A program made the translations under genes and the position numbers. 60,846 nucleotides of DNA from Caldilineaceae bacterium SB0661_bin_34. Its GTDB lineage: Bacteria; Chloroflexota; Anaerolineae; Caldilineales; Caldilineaceae. The stretch lies in NCBI GenBank assembly GCA_009841145.1, contig VXMJ01000089.1, positions 27,474-88,319 on the forward strand, given 5' to 3'. Shown here piece after piece: positions 4,262 to 11,727 of the stretch (positions are counted from its first letter, which is position 1; each line of letters opens with the position of its first letter). The notes under the pieces are model-generated. The model did not search any database, was not told where the DNA came from, and saw only the letters and a program-made list of their open reading frames with translations.

Positions 4262-5563
4262 TCAAGCCCCCGGGGCAACCAAGTTTTCCCGAATGCGATC
4301 CCGCAGCCGCCGGGCACGCCGGGGATCCCCCTCCACGGAGCTGACAGACACGAGCAAGCCGTCGGTTTCGAGCACGGCCGGCACCCGGAAGTCACCCGAT
4401 GTTGTATCGGTCGCCACATTGCAGAACAGACCGAGTTCGGCAGCATCCTGCGCGATCTTCACGTTAATCCGATGGTCGTTGGTGGCCGCAAACACCAGGC
4501 AACACCCCTGCAGATGGTCGGGTCGATATTGTCCGCGGATCCAGTCCACCTCGCCGGACCGAGACCAGTCCTGCAGCTCAGAAGTCGCGGTCGGACTGCA
4601 CACCACCACCCGTGCCCCAACGTCAAGCAGGCGTCGAACCTTGCGTGCACCAACCCTGCCGCCACCCGCCACAAGAGCCCGGCGACCGGCAAGGTTGGTC
4701 AGTGTCATGGGATACAAACCGGATGGTTTCCGAGATTCCGGCACCTCATCGGAAGGTTCCGAAGAGGAGAGTTGGAGGTCTGCGTCACGCCTGACAAATC
4801 CGGACGCATCCGGTGAGGCAAGGTCCTCGTCCCCCGGTTTCCATGCACCGGCCACCTCGCCAATGACGATGATGGTCGGGTATCCAATTGACTGTTCCCT
4901 GACGGTTGCATCCAATTGTCCCAGCACCGTCCGGTGGGTAGACTGGGTCGGAAGGGTCCCGTCGTTGATCAGCAGGACCGGCGTGTCGGGAGCCCGCCCG
5001 GCAGCGACCAGTTCGGTCTGAAGTTCCAAGGCCGCGCCGACACCCATAAACACCACAACCGTGTCCAATCCAGCCAGCGCACGCCACTGGTCTTTCGGCA
5101 AAGTACCTCCCGTCATCGGGCGGCCGGTCATGACGGCAAAGGTTGACGACAGGCCACGCCGGGTCAGGGACAGACCTGCAGTCGCCGTGGCACCCGTCAA
5201 GGCACTGATCCCCGGTACAACCTCCACTGCGCAACCCGCTTCCAGCAGGGCCTGGCGCTCCTCGGCTCCCCTGCCGAAGATGTACGGATCACCGCCCTTG
5301 AGCCGGACCACGCGCTTGCCTTGGCGGGCCATGCGCACCAGCATTTCGTTGATGTCGCTTTGCGAGGGGGACGATCTGCCGGGTGCCTTGCCCGCATCGA
5401 TGCACTCGACGGAAGGTGGCAGTTCGGCAATCAGGGTGTCGGACACAAGCCGATCGTGAACCACCACATCGGCGGCATGCAGCAACCGATGGCCCTTCCG
5501 GGTGATGAGTTCCGGGTCGCCGGGACCCGCGCCCACCAGCCATACCTTGCCCAGACCCGTCAT
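4262..5563 (-). CDS. Fused uroporphyrinogen-III methyltransferase / precorrin-2 dehydrogenase
   Basis: This 433-aa bifunctional siroheme enzyme has its SUMT (CobA/SirA) domain first, at residues 1 to about 250, with KVWLVGAGPGDPELIT at the start and the GGDPYIFGRG motif. A Rossmann precorrin-2 dehydrogenase (SirC) domain follows from about residue 286 (RRALVAGGGRVGARK). In E. coli CysG and many relatives the dehydrogenase comes first, so this order is permuted. The C-terminal part ends soon after the dinucleotide fold and seems to lack the CysG dimer/chelatase region. The adjacent CbiX/SirB gene can supply iron insertion. The ATG overlaps the TGA of that upstream gene (ATGA), which indicates translational coupling. 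It is the last gene of the sulfite-reduction operon. Confidence 0.9.
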   Translation of the reverse strand: MTGLGKVWLVGAGPGDPELITRKGHRLLHAADVVVHDRLVSDTLIAELPPSVECIDAGKAPGRSSPSQSDINEMLVRMARQGKRVVRLKGGDPYIFGRGAEERQALLEAGCAVEVVPGISALTGATATAGLSLTRRGLSSTFAVMTGRPMTGGTLPKDQWRALAGLDTVVVFMGVGAALELQTELVAAGRAPDTPVLLINDGTLPTQSTHRTVLGQLDATVREQSIGYPTIIVIGEVAGAWKPGDEDLASPDASGFVRRDADLQLSSSEPSDEVPESRKPSGLYPMTLTNLAGRRALVAGGGRVGARKVRRLLDVGARVVVCSPTATSELQDWSRSGEVDWIRGQYRPDHLQGCCLVFAATNDHRINVKIAQDAAELGLFCNVATDTTSGDFRVPAVLETDGLLVSVSSVEGDPRRARRLRDRIRENLVAPGA

Positions 5564-6354
5564 GCCGGCATGCCTGTAGCCTCCACAGTGGCCGAATCGA
5601 GGTCGATGGCCTTTGAGACGAGGTCGCGCAGAATCGGGGTCAAGAAAGTGGTCTCGCCCAGATGATCCGTCAGGACCACAACGCAGTCCGGATGCCTGTG
5701 CTGAAACAATCCGATGGCCCTGGGCACGTCCTCCCGGGTGTGGCGGCCCGCGCTGAGCAGGACCGGCACCACGCACAATCGCCTGATCCCCTCGTCATAT
5801 AGGTTGGAGGCTGCGGTCAGGACATCCGGTTGCTCGACATCCAAATACCCGGTTGCAACCGGAACCGGCGACAGAACCTCCCTCAACCGACCAGTCATCC
5901 TGCGAACCTGCTCCACTGCCGGCTCGTACCGGGAACCGTGTACGACGAATAGGCAACCCTGTTCAGGATCGGAAGGGTCGATGGCAGGAAGCGCAAGTTC
6001 CATCACTGCTCGGGTCCAGGCGGGGTGCTCTGCAATCTCCGGTCCCAAGACACTGCCAACCGCCGGCCAGCGGCGGTCCAGAGCGCGGAGTCGTTGCGGC
6101 AGATCCCGCCTGGTGTATTGGCCGCCGAACAGGAAATAGGGTTGGACCCGTACTGTGGTCGCACCCATGGCGGCCAGCTTGGCAAAGCCAGCCTCAAGCA
6201 GCGGTTCGCCGTAATTCAGGAAACACCCCAGCGCCTGCCGGGGCTCGGTACGGTCGACCTTCCACGTAGCATTCAGTTCGGCGACTACGGCACGCAGAGT
6301 CGTGTCGGCTCCGGCACGCAAGCTGCCGTGGGCAACCAGCAGCACTCCATCCAT
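5560..6354 (-). CDS. Sirohydrochlorin chelatase, CbiX/SirB family
   Basis: This protein of about 264 aa has two CbiX repeats, each starting with the family's xxVxHGSR-type motif: LLVAHGSLRAG near the N-terminus and LFVVHGSRYEP near the middle. The protein also contains YFLFGGQYTRRDLP and VLLSAGRHTREDVP, where the second histidine-containing motif is expected. It would insert Fe2+ into sirohydrochlorin to make siroheme for the sulfite reductase upstream. The start chosen is the ATG just before the first motif. A 130-nt gap separates it from cysH. The downstream SUMT-SirC gene overlaps its stop codon, so the two are probably co-translated. Confidence 0.88.
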   Translation of the reverse strand: MDGVLLVAHGSLRAGADTTLRAVVAELNATWKVDRTEPRQALGCFLNYGEPLLEAGFAKLAAMGATTVRVQPYFLFGGQYTRRDLPQRLRALDRRWPAVGSVLGPEIAEHPAWTRAVMELALPAIDPSDPEQGCLFVVHGSRYEPAVEQVRRMTGRLREVLSPVPVATGYLDVEQPDVLTAASNLYDEGIRRLCVVPVLLSAGRHTREDVPRAIGLFQHRHPDCVVVLTDHLGETTFLTPILRDLVSKAIDLDSATVEATGMPA

Positions 6355-6484
6355 GGCGGCAGATCGTTGTCCGGTTCGGACACCACAAGCTTCAACCCGG
6401 CGATCCCGGACCGGAGACCGAAACGCGGAACCTGTCGCCCACAGGTCTCCGGCACAGGAGCCGACTGACACGCATCCTGGCCGG

Positions 6485-7267
6485 TCAACCGGATTGTCCG
6501 GCCAGTGCCAACTCCTCGGGAGTATCGTCATCGGTCTGCAAGCCGCACTCGGTCTTGTCCATCCCGCGCCACCGGCCGGCCCGTTCGTCCTCGCCTTCCG
6601 AAACCGGCTGTGTGCAGGGCCAGCAACCGATCGATGGATAGCCTTGGTCGTGCAGTTCGTTGTAGGGCAGGTTGTGTTCCCGCACGTAGTCCCAAACCTG
6701 GTCACCGGTCACTTCTGCCATTGGGGTTAGCTTCAGGACGTTGAACTTGTCGTTCCAGGCAATATACGGGGTGTCGACCCGGGTCGGAGACTGATCGCGC
6801 CGGATGGACGTGATCCAAATCGAACTGTCCTTGAGGGCATGGATTTGGGTGTACACCTTTCTGATTTTGCAGCACTGGTTGGGATCCGTGCTGTACAGGG
6901 CCGGACCATACCGTTCGGCTTGTTCGGGGATCGTAAGGTGCGGCATTATGCTGCGGAAGCTGCGCCCGAAATGTTCCTCGGCTCGGGCAATCTGGTCCAT
7001 GGTCTGAGGGAACAGGTACTCAGTGTTGAGATAGTAGATGTCGATGTGGGGATCGATCTTCAGGGCCATGTCCATCATCATCAGACCGGAGGGGCCAAAC
7101 GAAGTGCCCAGGGAAACCCCGGTCCGGAAGTTGGAAAGGCACCACTCCAGAATCTCCTGAGGCGTACAGGACTCGAACTGCCGATTCATTTCTTCAAGGA
7201 ACTCGGCCGTGACGAATGCCGGGCGGCCAGTGCTGGTGGCGAAGAAAGTCGGAGCGTGGTGAGACAT
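6485..7267 (-). CDS. cysH: Adenylyl-/phosphoadenylyl-sulfate reductase
   Basis: This 260-aa CysH-family reductase makes sulfite from APS (or PAPS). The four [4Fe-4S] ligand cysteines typical of APS-type enzymes are visible: CC at 132-133 and CxxC at 215-218 (GCWPC). That favours APS over PAPS as substrate. The catalytic cysteine is C241, in TECGLQ. The usual signature is ECGLH or ECGIH, so the last residue is unusual. The start at 7267 has a GGAGG just upstream, although only 3 nt away. It lies 29 nt after the TrpD2-like gene in the sulfite-reduction operon. No sulfate-activation genes (cysDN or sat) are in the window. Confidence 0.93.
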   Translation of the reverse strand: MSHHAPTFFATSTGRPAFVTAEFLEEMNRQFESCTPQEILEWCLSNFRTGVSLGTSFGPSGLMMMDMALKIDPHIDIYYLNTEYLFPQTMDQIARAEEHFGRSFRSIMPHLTIPEQAERYGPALYSTDPNQCCKIRKVYTQIHALKDSSIWITSIRRDQSPTRVDTPYIAWNDKFNVLKLTPMAEVTGDQVWDYVREHNLPYNELHDQGYPSIGCWPCTQPVSEGEDERAGRWRGMDKTECGLQTDDDTPEELALAGQSG

Positions 7268-7296
7268 ATGCCTCCAGGTTGGAACGTGGAAAACGA

Positions 7297-8370
7297 TCAA
7301 CTCGACATGGATTGAAGAATGGCATTGGCGCGGCCGCTGGCGAGTGCCAACCGCGCCGCCTCGATTCCGGAAGGAATGTCCGGTACGCTACCGAATAGCG
7401 ACAGGATTACACCCGTCGTCAAGGCCACCTGATCTCTGGCCGGACAGTCCTCGTCGTTGACAGCCTGCCCGTTGAGGGCGGCGTGCGCCGCGGGATCCGG
7501 ATCCGGTTCCACTGCCACGCGCCGGGCGAATCCGAGGGCTTCCGGGTCAAGAACCACGGTTTCATTTGCAGACTGTCCGTAGATGCGGGTCTTGCGGCCC
7601 GAGCGCATCTCGATCGAGCCTTCCTCGCCTTGGACAATCCAACTGGCTTGCCCGCCGGTCTGGGCGGCCCGAACATGGTCGATGTATTTGGTGTGGTAGA
7701 AGCCCGTCACCTGCCACTCGGCGTTGGCCGGATTCACAAGCTTCTCAACCGTGTTCAGCACGGTCCGCAAACCGAATTCCCACCGCATCGGCAACAGGTC
7801 GTGCCAAGCGGGCATGAATCGAGCGGCACTGCAGTAGGCCACGCCGTCCGCTTCCAGCCTAAATCCGACCTCGGTGGGGACTAGATCGGTGGCAACACCC
7901 AACTGGTCCAACACGGCACCGACCGTCACCCCTGCCTTGGTCGGGACCTGTTCGTCACCGTGCAGCATCACCGGCAGGCCACAGGCGGCCAGGGTCAACG
8001 CCACGGCCGGGACCAACTGAGCCGTCCGTTCCTTGCCGTCGTAGGGGACTGCCAAATCAAGCAGCGGTGAAACCGAGTGCGGAACAGGTTCCAACCAACG
8101 TTGGCGAACCGCGTCCGCGAATCCGGAAATCTCGGCAGCGCACTCGCCCTTGACCCGCTGGGCAATCAGGAAAGCGCCGGTTTGTGCTTCGGTGGCCGAG
8201 CCGCCGAGAATGCGATCCAGGGCATCACAGGCTTCTGCCCGGGTAAGGTCCCTGCGCAAGGTGGCACCGCGGCCAAGGGCCTGCACATGTGGGATGAATC
8301 CGGCCGGATCGCGCGCGGGGACGGCCACATCCGCCATTGGCGGTGGATGTGGCAAGGTGGCGATCGACAT
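7297..8370 (-). CDS. TrpD2/YbiB-like glycosyltransferase-family protein
   Basis: This 357-aa protein resembles anthranilate phosphoribosyltransferase (glycosyl transferase family 3 fold) but fits the TrpD2/YbiB paralogue group. The phosphoribosyl-pyrophosphate loop of true TrpD (GTGGD) is replaced by a segment reading VPYDGKERTAQL, followed by the VMLHG strand seen in YbiB-like proteins. No other trp genes are nearby. It sits inside the sulfite reductase-cysH operon, with 29 nt to cysH and 24 nt from the upstream 198-aa gene. That suggests a role tied to sulfur assimilation rather than tryptophan synthesis. The activity is unknown. Confidence 0.75.
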   Translation of the reverse strand: MSIATLPHPPPMADVAVPARDPAGFIPHVQALGRGATLRRDLTRAEACDALDRILGGSATEAQTGAFLIAQRVKGECAAEISGFADAVRQRWLEPVPHSVSPLLDLAVPYDGKERTAQLVPAVALTLAACGLPVMLHGDEQVPTKAGVTVGAVLDQLGVATDLVPTEVGFRLEADGVAYCSAARFMPAWHDLLPMRWEFGLRTVLNTVEKLVNPANAEWQVTGFYHTKYIDHVRAAQTGGQASWIVQGEEGSIEMRSGRKTRIYGQSANETVVLDPEALGFARRVAVEPDPDPAAHAALNGQAVNDEDCPARDQVALTTGVILSLFGSVPDIPSGIEAARLALASGRANAILQSMSS

Positions 8371-8394
8371 GTTCAGGAGCCTTGCGCTTCGGAT

Positions 8395-8991
8395 TCAGTT
8401 ACCTGACGCCTGCACGGAAGCCACCGAGTGCTCACCGGCCACCGCCACCGTCAAGGTCAAGGGCAACCGTTCGTCAATCCCGGGATGAGACACCGTAACG
8501 GCCGCGGAGCCGAACACCTCGGCAAGCCATTCCTGCACCAAGGCCGCGACCGCCTGTACGTTTGCTTCCGTGAAGGCATAGCGCAACCGGTCCGGAACCA
8601 TCAATTGCAGGCGGCCCGGGTTGATCGACACTCCCAAGCCGGCTTCCTGTTCGAGAGCCTCGGCCGCTTCCAGGGCGTTAGTCCACAACTGGCGAAGCCG
8701 TTCCAGGAAGGATGCCTCGTCCGCCAGGCGGGCGTGTTTGCGGGTGTAGTGGAATCCCTGACCCGACTCGGTCCGCGGCAAGCCATTATCGATGCCGCAG
8801 TCGTCCGTGTGCCCAATCAGGACCACACCGGGACTGGCCTCGACGTGCTTGTAGTCGGCCACGTCGATCAGCATGGTCGACAGCCGGCCATTCTGAATCC
8901 AGCCGTGGAAGACTGGAATAACATCGTCCAGGTTCACTGGCGCGTCACCATGCAGTTCAAAGCGCAGGATGAGCCGTTGGGGCTGTTCCAT
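8395..8991 (-). CDS. Conserved-looking hypothetical protein in sulfite-reduction operon
   Basis: I do not recognise this 198-aa protein. It starts at an ATG with a strong GGGGAGGG site 8 nt upstream, which overlaps the sulfite reductase stop codon, so the two are tightly coupled. The sequence is acidic with no membrane segment or signal peptide. It includes the segments VVLIGHTDDCGIDNG and PRTESGQGFHYTRK. It is followed 24 nt later by the TrpD2-like gene. Position and coupling suggest a cytosolic accessory of sulfite reduction or electron supply, but nothing in the sequence shows a catalytic motif. Confidence 0.7.
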   Translation of the reverse strand: MEQPQRLILRFELHGDAPVNLDDVIPVFHGWIQNGRLSTMLIDVADYKHVEASPGVVLIGHTDDCGIDNGLPRTESGQGFHYTRKHARLADEASFLERLRQLWTNALEAAEALEQEAGLGVSINPGRLQLMVPDRLRYAFTEANVQAVAALVQEWLAEVFGSAAVTVSHPGIDERLPLTLTVAVAGEHSVASVQASGN

Positions 8992-9006
8992 AACCAATGC
9001 CCTCCC

Positions 9007-11277
9007 CTACAGCTGAATGCCGCCGGTGGTCGGCGTCGCGGCCGCGGCAATGCGGCCGTCGCAGGCATGGGCAGCCTCGATGAACAGATAGGCCTCTTCG
9101 ATCGTCTCGTGGGCCGCCACCGCATCCGGATCCTCGACACGCTGCCGGTGGTGCTTGAACAGGTACTGGCCAAACTTGCCCTTGGCAAAACGATCAAAGA
9201 ACAGTTCGGTATCGTAGAAGCGGCTCTTGAACTCCGCCACAATCTCAGTTTCGTCGTTGGTGATGTCCACCGTCTGGCCGCGCAGCAGGGCCCTGGCCGC
9301 AAGCACCATCGACTGCACCGCCCCGGCGTAGGCCTCGCTGTGCCGCCCGTCGTCCATGGAAATTTGCGCCTCGAACACCTCGGCCTCCGCCCGCGCAATC
9401 TCCAGGGTGAACAGCGACACGACCTCGCCGGCACATTCGCCGACGCCGATGTCGCCGGTGGTGAACTCCCGGGGATCGCCCCAGTCGCTGTAGAACTGGG
9501 GACTGTCCTCGTACAGGGGGATCTGGGTGAAGGGCTTGAGCAGTTCGCGAATGTTTTTCTTGCCGAAGCGGTCGACCCAGGACTGGAACGATTCGCCGTC
9601 TTCGCGGTCGGTGTGGAATCGGTTGGTCAATTCGGTCAGGACTTCGGGCACGGAGCGCGACGGGACGGCCCCCACGGCCAAGCCGTAGCTGCCGGCGTTC
9701 TCCTGCCACTGGCCACCCAACACCACCTGGAAGTGGGGCACGGTCCGCTTGTTGCGGTGGCGGCTGTTGCCAAAGAAGCCGATGTCCGCCACATGATGCT
9801 GGCCGCAGGAGTTGAAGCAGCCGCTGATCTTGATCTTCAGCTCCTGGACCTCGGGTGGCAGTTCCTCCACCTGTTGGGCCAGTCGCGCGCCCAGTTCCCC
9901 GGCCAAACCGCGGGACGAGGCAATGCCGAGCTTGCAGGTGTCCGTGCCGGGACAGGCGGTGATATCCGCAATGCTGCCGGCCCAGGCCGTGGCCAGATCG
10001 GCCGCCTTCAGGTCCGCGTACAGGTCGCGCAGATCCTGGTCGGCAACCCACCGCAGAACGAAGTTCTGTTCCACGGTGGTGCGAATGTGGTCGCCCACGT
10101 ACTTGCGGGCGATGTCCGCCAGGTCCAGAGACTGCTGCACGGTCAAATCGCCAAGCGGCAGGGCGACGTGCACGACGGAGAAACCTCCCTGGCGCTGCCG
10201 ATAGACGTTGGTGGCGAACCAGCGTTCGTACTCGGGATCGGAATCCCCGTACTCGATGGCTATCGGCTGGCGCACCGGCTGCTCGGTGAAACCTTCGAGG
10301 CCATCCAGGTAGCTGGTCCAGCGGTCATCGTGGGGCAGGATCTCCCGCTCCTCAAAGACCAGCCGACTGAACTCCTCCATGCCCAGCTTGGCCACGAGGA
10401 ACTTGATGCGGGCCCGGTTCCGGTTGCGCTTTTCGCCCAGCCGGGCAAAGACGCGGCAGACCGCTTGGGAGAGAGGCAAAATTTCCTCTTCGGACACGAA
10501 TGCCTGCAAGAGGCGGGCTTGATGGGGTACGGCCCCCAGACCGCCGCCCACGTACATGTCGAATCCCCGAACCGTGCGGCCGTCGCGCACCTCGGTGCGG
10601 GCAATGAAACCCAGATCGTGCATTGACACCAGGCCGCAGGCCTCGTGTTCGCAGCCGGAGAAGGCAATCTTGAACTTGCGGCCGAAGTCCTGCACATCGT
10701 CGTGACCCAGCAGGAAGAAGGTCAGCGCGTCGGCATAGGGTGTGACGTCGAACTCCTCGGTACGGCACACTCCGGCCAAGGGACACGCCGTGACGTTGCG
10801 CACCGAGTTGCCGCAAGCTTCGCGGGTGGTGATGCCAACCGCGGCCAGGCGGCGCATCAAGTCGGGGGTGTCCTCCACATGGACAAAGTGCAACTGGAAG
10901 TCCTGCCTCGTCGTGATGTGCAGGATCCCGTCGGAGTATTCGTCCGCCAGTGCGGCCAGAACTTCCAACTGGTCCGGCTTGAGGCCGCCCCAGGGAATTT
11001 TGATCCGCTGCATGCCGGGCGCATCCCAAAACGTGTCGGGACCCTTGACGGCCTCGCCCGACGGAAAATTGAGTTCCTGTTCCCGAATGCCGTCGTGCCG
11101 TTTGCCGTTGTCGTACCGCTGCCCGTAGACCCCTCGCCGCAGCCGGGTCTCGGCGAATACCTTGTCCTCCAAGGTGCCATTGAACACCAGGCCCATCTGG
11201 CCTTCGAAGGTGTCTACCTCCTGTGCCCAGCTTTCGGGAATCTGATCCTGGAGGGCGGACTTCCAACTGTTGGCCAT
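9007..11277 (-). CDS. Ferredoxin-type sulfite (nitrite/sulfite) reductase with C-terminal extension
   Basis: This 756-aa siroheme/[4Fe-4S] enzyme reduces sulfite to sulfide for cysteine synthesis. The cluster and siroheme ligands are visible as C442/C448 (TACPGTDTC) and C487/C491 (SGCFNSCGQH). The N-terminal half also carries C165/C171 (TACPLAGVC) and C209/C214 (SGCEHEAC), positions that usually lack such pairs. The region from about residue 640 to the end is an extra helical domain resembling HEPN-type C-terminal extensions. Nitrite as substrate is possible, but cysH and the siroheme genes downstream favour sulfite. The start is the ATG after a GAGAGAG site. Its leader carries a Cys-rich ORF and a terminator. 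Confidence 0.9.
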   Translation of the reverse strand: MANSWKSALQDQIPESWAQEVDTFEGQMGLVFNGTLEDKVFAETRLRRGVYGQRYDNGKRHDGIREQELNFPSGEAVKGPDTFWDAPGMQRIKIPWGGLKPDQLEVLAALADEYSDGILHITTRQDFQLHFVHVEDTPDLMRRLAAVGITTREACGNSVRNVTACPLAGVCRTEEFDVTPYADALTFFLLGHDDVQDFGRKFKIAFSGCEHEACGLVSMHDLGFIARTEVRDGRTVRGFDMYVGGGLGAVPHQARLLQAFVSEEEILPLSQAVCRVFARLGEKRNRNRARIKFLVAKLGMEEFSRLVFEEREILPHDDRWTSYLDGLEGFTEQPVRQPIAIEYGDSDPEYERWFATNVYRQRQGGFSVVHVALPLGDLTVQQSLDLADIARKYVGDHIRTTVEQNFVLRWVADQDLRDLYADLKAADLATAWAGSIADITACPGTDTCKLGIASSRGLAGELGARLAQQVEELPPEVQELKIKISGCFNSCGQHHVADIGFFGNSRHRNKRTVPHFQVVLGGQWQENAGSYGLAVGAVPSRSVPEVLTELTNRFHTDREDGESFQSWVDRFGKKNIRELLKPFTQIPLYEDSPQFYSDWGDPREFTTGDIGVGECAGEVVSLFTLEIARAEAEVFEAQISMDDGRHSEAYAGAVQSMVLAARALLRGQTVDITNDETEIVAEFKSRFYDTELFFDRFAKGKFGQYLFKHHRQRVEDPDAVAAHETIEEAYLFIEAAHACDGRIAAAATPTTGGIQL

Positions 11278-11401: not shown

Positions 11402-11432
11402 AAAAAAACAGGCCCGTCCAACGACGAGCCTG
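11402..11432 (-). terminator. Intrinsic terminator in sulfite reductase leader
   Basis: On the minus strand, arms CAGGCTCGTC and GACGGGCCTG form a 10-bp stem with one G-U pair and a GTTG loop. Seven consecutive T's follow directly (A's at 11402-11408 on the plus strand). It lies between the Cys-rich ORF and the sulfite reductase gene, so it must be read through for the operon to be expressed. Confidence 0.85.
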
Positions 11433-11490
11433 CGGTCTTGCGATGCTCGCTCCTGTCGGATGGAGCACCGCGCCAAACGGAGTTCGCCGT

Positions 11491-11664
11491 CTATCCGGAA
11501 GGACAGCAACTACACGAGCAGCTGCAACTACACGAGCAGCTGCAACTGGTACGGCAACAGCAGCAGCCGCAGTTGCAAGTTGAGCAGGCCTGGCAGGCCG
11601 AGCAACAACTCGAGATTTTGGCAGCGCCAAGCTGACACTGCATTCCAGAATCGATTCTCTCCAT
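11491..11664 (-). CDS. Cys-rich leader peptide (57 aa, 19 Cys)
   Basis: This short ORF is preceded by AAGGAG, 8 nt before its ATG. It encodes 57 residues of which 19 are cysteine, at positions 10, 20, 21, 24, 27, 30, 32, 34-37, then every second residue from 41 to 53, and 54. Residues 34-37 are four Cys in a row. Residues 40-53 are seven Ser-Cys pairs, partly encoded by an 18-bp tandem repeat (11508-11543). It ends 213 nt before the sulfite reductase start, with a terminator between. The simplest reading is a regulatory leader whose translation senses Cys-tRNA. A small metal-binding (metallothionein-like) or other thiol-rich protein is the alternative. No transmembrane or signal segment is seen. 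Confidence 0.8.
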   Translation of the reverse strand: MERIDSGMQCQLGAAKISSCCSACQACSTCNCGCCCCRTSCSCSCSCSCSCSCCPSG

Positions 11665-11716
11665 GATTGGATCTCCTTACTTCGAGTCGAAGAGTAACGG
11701 TCATCCAACACCACCG

Positions 11717-11722
11717 ATTCTA
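11717..11722 (-). promoter_or_regulatory. Possible -10 box for the sulfur operon
   Basis: On the minus strand TAGAAT matches 5 of 6 positions of the sigma-70 -10 consensus. It would place the transcript start about 45 nt before the Cys-rich ORF. No convincing -35 hexamer is seen 16-18 nt further upstream, so this is tentative. Confidence 0.3.
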
Positions 11723-11727
11723 ACACA

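Follow-up and report, generated by a model that had tools for sequence, protein, structure and literature searches.

The 60,846-nt stretch of Caldilineaceae bacterium SB0661_bin_34 analysed here (the window) carries a short, cysteine-rich leader ORF and an intrinsic terminator in front of a reductase, CysH and siroheme operon. Together these very probably form a transcription attenuator of the trp type, in which a translating ribosome monitors the supply of Cys-tRNA. Because unrelated-looking versions of the arrangement recur across the class Anaerolineae, the cell very probably senses cysteine by means of a stalling ribosome. The initial annotation had proposed such an attenuator, and this reading gains support at the sequence level from conservation in the genus, recurrence in the class, co-occurrence with terminators and a computed switch. 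The features are listed in Table 1.

Table 1. Features of the leader and its operon in the window.
Feature	Position	Strand	Description	Basis
Probable -10 element of leader promoter	11717..11723	-	TTAGAAT (extended: TGTGTTAGAAT)	Deduced from sequence
Shine-Dalgarno sequence of leader ORF	11672..11677	-	AAGGAG, about 8 nt 5′ of ATG; limits +/-1-2 nt	Sequence
Leader ORF	11491..11664	-	57 codons, 19 Cys	ORF and translation; kept in relatives G001-G003
Antiterminator 5′ strand (predicted)	11484..11491	-	GACGGCGA; begins at last base of stop codon	Folding
Internal hairpin	11437..11475	-	GCGGTGCTCC...GGAGCGAGCATCGC; approximate limits	MFE structures
Antiterminator 3′ strand (predicted)	11420..11427	-	TCGTCGTT; overlaps terminator 5′ arm and loop	Folding
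Intrinsic terminator	11402..11432	-	10-bp stem 11432-11409, loop GTTG, U7 11408-11402	Sequence and folding; near-invariant in genus
First gene, siroheme/4Fe-4S nitrite/sulfite reductase family	9007..11277	-	756 aa	PF01077, PF03460; below NCBIfam CysI/Sir cut-offs
Rest of sulfate-assimilation part of operon	6485..8997	-		Pfam and NCBIfam
TrpD-like glycosyltransferase family 3 gene	7297-8370	-		Pfam/NCBIfam
CysH (PAPS reductase) gene	6485-7252	-		Pfam/NCBIfam
Siroheme genes	4262..6705	-		Domain matches
CbiX-type chelatase	within 5560-6705	-		Domain match
TP_methylase and NAD_binding_7, siroheme-synthase-like	4262-5776	-		Domain match

The leader ORF starts with ATG and encodes MERIDSGMQCQLGAAKISSCCSACQACSTCNCGCCCCRTSCSCSCSCSCSCSCCPSG, followed by a stop codon. 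Its Cys codons (TGC 13 times, TGT 6 times) include a single CCCC run and a last tract with seven Ser-Cys pairs, and an 18-nt tandem repeat, AGTTGCAGCTGCTCGTGT, encodes Ser-Cys three times inside the ORF. The initial annotation had described the length, ribosome binding site and cysteine content of this ORF exactly to the base. When 80 homologous upstream regions were dinucleotide-shuffled, the maximum was 4 Cys in 8 codons, against 6 in a near-identical relative of the window ORF; the Cys tract is therefore not a chance product. The best -10-like match lies 52 nt 5′ of the ATG, and TGTGTTAGAATCG is unchanged in all four genomes of the genus, with diverged flanks. The ORF in this genus is SD-led, and its 5′ UTR would be about 45 nt long.

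The terminator stands between the leader ORF and the first structural gene. Its arms, CAGGCTCGTC and GACGGGCCTG, form a stem of -20.3 kcal/mol, counting one extra G-U pair. The stem begins 58 nt after the leader stop codon and U7 lies 124 nt from the reductase ATG (11277); these spacings, and the hairpin itself, had been given correctly in the initial annotation. A 12-bp hairpin (CGTTGGACGGGC/GCCTGTCCGACG, 11423-11390, minus strand) overlaps the terminator and could form only after readthrough; it is retained in the congeners G002 and G003 with wobble changes.

The operon had been called a sulfite reductase operon. Pfam places its first gene in the NIR_SIR family, but the gene falls under the NCBIfam cut-offs for CysI and Sir, so that the name rests on the operon. 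The nearest named records of this protein came from Caldilineaceae and Caldilineales MAGs, with 97-98% identity over the protein. The gene between the reductase and TrpD-like genes (8395-8997, minus strand, 200 aa) had no Pfam or NCBIfam match. Cysteine, the amino acid proposed as the sensed one, is the end product of the pathway encoded by the operon.

Three congeners (G001-G003) retain the Cys tract, the ORF and a near-invariant terminator. The most distant of them, G003, is 76% identical in DNA sequence across this region. It kept each of the 16 aligned Cys residues, against 18 of 35 other residues (17 changed; P = 3e-4). This is the conservation of Cys codons without the other residues that had been suggested as a check. 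G003 lacks one 18-nt repeat unit, in frame, and its ORF runs on to a later stop codon. Even so, G003 and the window have the same sequence from CAGGCTCG through U7. The pattern looks like selection on codons and RNA structure rather than on a protein.

For the class, we scanned the regions upstream of homologous reductase genes on 80 named contigs, within about 600 nt, for short ORFs containing 4 or more Cys codons in a stretch of 8. Such an ORF preceded 26 of the 80 genes. The antisense strand gave 2 of 80, and dinucleotide shuffles predicted 0.4 of 80. A terminator was found in 21 of the 26 loci with a Cys ORF but in only 7 of the 54 without one (P = 4e-9, an optimistic value, since the 80 loci are related and the counts are not independent events). 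Two of the 26, L090 and L100, look like chance cases, with the terminator absent and the start unclear. The leaders of L015/L046, L016 and L048 had no recognised terminator; L046 is a MAG that bears the name Litorilinea aerophila.

Leaders of other genera and families differ in sequence and have the Cys tract but little else in common. Examples from other lineages are MFVNAITTQMMCLCCMCPHTGDGTARQGG, MNKNAQTALCCCCCMCTSATRVSRF and MLNKTVTTCCMCCCPTIRETATRLV; in the window's own family, MSALRT...PCSCIPCCCPCCSR and ...SCCFSCCFSCCFSCNSCPCC were found, and more occur in families f22, f28, f36 and f45. Peptides of other genera share nothing beyond the Cys tract, which means that the ORF does not encode a conserved Cys-rich protein. 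A conserved Cys-rich protein with no terminator nearby had been named as evidence against attenuation; what we found was a conserved terminator and peptides alike only in their Cys tracts. Terminators also recur in other families, with differing sequences. The covariation that had also been called for was seen in part: between close relatives, both partners of a terminator-stem pair had changed (A-U to G-C between L059 and L063, C-G to U-A between L073 and L076), but the antiterminator strands do not vary within the genus and so give no covariation evidence.

The distribution in the class is patchy. All ten genomes of family f36 in which the reductase gene was found carry the arrangement. In genus g9 (L018-L034), which belongs to the window's family and has the same reductase gene, no Cys leader was present upstream, nor any terminator in those checked; this may reflect either a clean loss or a different mode of control. 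Neither leader nor terminator was seen in the scanned regions of the genus g141 genomes examined, and both were absent from several further lineages.

The Cys leader appears specific to the reductase operon when control genes are compared: the same test gave 0 of 30 upstream regions for ATP sulfurylase and 1 of 30 for cysK. In the window's own genome, no leader was found upstream of cysK or ATP sulfurylase. In L235, a short ORF, MSMARISIIQVCMCRCSCRMRRRWTLPASQDQAC, and a GC-rich hairpin precede cysK and may mark a second target of Cys attenuation there. Poly-Cys DNA patterns gave 168 matches in the window's own genome against 106 in a reversed control, most of them chance matches inside coding sequence, as were most matches in 150 genomes of the class; these scans are therefore uninformative about a wider regulon. 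Neither the window nor 17 relatives gave an Rfam match at or above a family's gathering score; weaker matches (Ms_IGR-4, Atu_C8, suhB), far under these scores, were taken as chance.

For the switch, we folded the nascent leader up to the terminator loop after removing the RNA that a ribosome covers or has already passed, its A site being on the Cys codons or on the stop codon and its footprint reaching 9 nt past the A site. As readout we took how far upstream RNA paired with the 5′ arm of the terminator, in 25 leaders (18 in a smaller set). Moving the ribosome from the Cys codons to the stop lowered sequestration of the arm by a mean of 0.32. The drop was 0.07 +/- 0.04 in spacer shuffles (maximum 0.16) and 0.19 +/- 0.03 with terminators exchanged among leaders (maximum 0.25). 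In the window leader, sequestration fell from 0.72 to 0.29. Five of the 25 leaders showed little or no computed switch, including that of congener G003 (0.08). By this computation, the predicted antiterminator excludes the terminator and depends on ribosome position.

In the folded window leader, 11491-11484 pairs with 11427-11420 if the ribosome is on the Cys codons and is masked if it is at the stop. A ribosome at the stop would cover this segment because the antiterminator helix begins at the stop codon, as in trp. The initial annotation had assigned the switching role to another segment, 11450-11444. Its two alternative pairings do exist in the window (energies of -11.1 with the Cys tract and -9.6 with the terminator arm), but G003 has GCGACCT at this place and the pairing is lost, so that we rejected it as the antiterminator. 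It is contained in the internal hairpin, which forms with the ribosome at either position. The likeliest antiterminator in the window, as judged by folding, is 11491-11484 with 11427-11420. Leaders of the L063 type show a longer chain of pairings: the end of the ORF may bind GACCGCTCC, which leaves GGAGCAGTC available to the terminator GACTGC; otherwise GACCGCTCC and GGAGCAGTC pair with each other.

When the full window leader was folded at equilibrium, the terminator formed in every state, even with a stalled ribosome. The switch would therefore need co-transcriptional order and polymerase pausing, as in known attenuators.

The proposed mechanism is as follows. RNA polymerase would start about 45 nt 5′ of the leader ORF, with a ribosome following. 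With ample Cys-tRNA, the ribosome would reach the stop codon and cover GACGGCGA, the terminator hairpin would form and transcription would end at U7. With scarce cysteine, the ribosome would halt in the Cys tract and leave GACGGCGA free to pair with TCGTCGTT before the terminator 3′ arm is synthesized; the terminator would be pre-empted and the reductase-CysH-siroheme operon transcribed. In this model, we infer where transcription starts, that the leader is translated and the ribosome stalls on it, which way the response goes, and that Cys-tRNA is the signal.

Classical attenuators of the trp, his, leu, thr, ilv and phe operons combine control codons, an antiterminator that the ribosome covers on reaching the stop codon, and a terminator. 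The window leader likewise is a translatable ORF rich in codons for the end product (one third Cys, SD-led, kept in the genus and enriched in the class), followed by a terminator. It differs in that cysteine would be sensed and in its long, repeat-built leader. The literature searched yielded no attenuator of this class from Chloroflexota.

Canestrari et al. (2020) reportedly described poly-Cys leader ORFs in mycobacteria, with translational control in M. smegmatis. By analogy, a stalled ribosome might instead free a sequestered ribosome binding site of the reductase gene, with the hairpin and U7 secondary. This is consistent with the few Anaerolineae leaders without a recognised terminator and with the poly-Cys leaders described in Actinobacteria in 2005 before cys operons, for which no conserved terminators were found (PMC1262725); a further article cites translation attenuation of cysteine genes in M. 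smegmatis (PMC13236596). We nevertheless consider it unlikely here. Terminators accompany most of the Cys ORFs and are rare otherwise, the window terminator lies 124 nt before the ATG of the reductase gene, and it is the terminator arm on which the computed switch acts. The mycobacterial and actinobacterial leaders resemble this one as short poly-Cys ORFs before cys operons, and some Anaerolineae leaders also look leaderless. The window leader is set apart by its conserved intrinsic terminator, and its SD and the distance of its probable -10-like box from the ATG do not fit a leaderless start.

With 19 Cys in 57 residues, the peptide itself might be functional, with a metal- or redox-binding role like that of CruR or a metallothionein, so that the nascent chain senses the state of metal or sulfur. 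Alternatively, the ORF might simply be a separate small gene that has a terminator of its own. Copper-sensing uORF products that contain Cys do exist: CruR is a copper-responsive uORF encoding a conserved DUF2946 protein with CXXC and RAPP motifs, which acts through Rho-dependent termination (PMC9426467). The likeness lies in a uORF with functionally important Cys that acts on downstream genes. The window peptide, however, matched no Pfam family and has no RAPP motif, the tract length varies by repeat units, no spacing or motif outside the tract is common to the peptides of other genera, and the ORF is found specifically before the reductase gene; both readings are thus very improbable. The tandem repeat and the many other overlapping ORFs could also suggest a chance origin, in which a repeat merely happens to read as Cys-rich and the terminator belongs elsewhere. 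Recurrence in unrelated contexts, enrichment over shuffles and antisense strand, and terminator co-occurrence already contradict this explanation, and hardly any weight is left to it.

Among the known systems closest to the proposed Cys attenuator is the uORFC-8-2 motif of the Rhodobacterales cysS leader, reported in 2021, with a Cys-codon uORF, predicted stalling at low Cys-tRNA and a subsequent intrinsic terminator (PMC8632094). Both have tandem Cys codons followed by an intrinsic terminator. In uORFC-8-2, one conserved RNA motif of Alphaproteobacteria with two Cys codons at positions 14-15 controls cysteinyl-tRNA synthetase; in the Anaerolineae, the tracts are long, the leaders are non-homologous between lineages, and the genes downstream in the window are those for the reductase, CysH and siroheme synthesis, not cysS. 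The initial annotation had set the window leader apart from mycobacteria by its SD and terminator. Both are indeed present, and the terminator is conserved; a Cys attenuator with a terminator is not unique, because the Rhodobacterales case had already been described. A search of open-access literature found no described Cys attenuator from Chloroflexota. Cys attenuation itself is thus known, and the arrangement is new in phylum, operon and breadth.

In 5 of 23 leaders, a strong -35/-10-like pair ended 6-8 nt 5′ of the ATG, while every other 3-nt bin held at most one. This suggests that the poly-Cys ORFs of these five (L065, L070, L131, L269 and L273, with the pair ending 7-8 nt from the ATG) are leaderless, as in mycobacteria, yet they have terminators. 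In L054 and L091, two poly-Cys ORF-terminator modules stand in series upstream of the reductase gene. Tentatively, there may be a class-wide Anaerolineae family in which poly-Cys ORFs, apparently leaderless in several lineages and forming two attenuators in series in some, control intrinsic termination before reductase operons. Such a family would join leaderless initiation to transcription attenuation, and an ORF of mycobacterial type to a terminator of enterobacterial type. As the leaders are not homologous, it might have been reinvented repeatedly.

These results point to cysteine as a signal for assimilatory sulfur metabolism in Anaerolineae, a large class, mostly uncultured and with little-studied regulation, where this mechanism can be read from the genome. 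The control codons and the operon stay the same while peptides and terminators are unrelated, ORFs start with an SD or leaderless, and modules are single or in tandem; this offers a natural series on the origin and loss of attenuators. For annotation, such a leader ORF should be treated as a sensor and not as a Cys-rich protein. In L063, L064, L068 and L079, the stretch directly 5′ of the leader ATG, where the transcript probably begins, contains a long hairpin of the AGACCCTAAGGGTTTTTGAAACCCTTAGGGTCT type.
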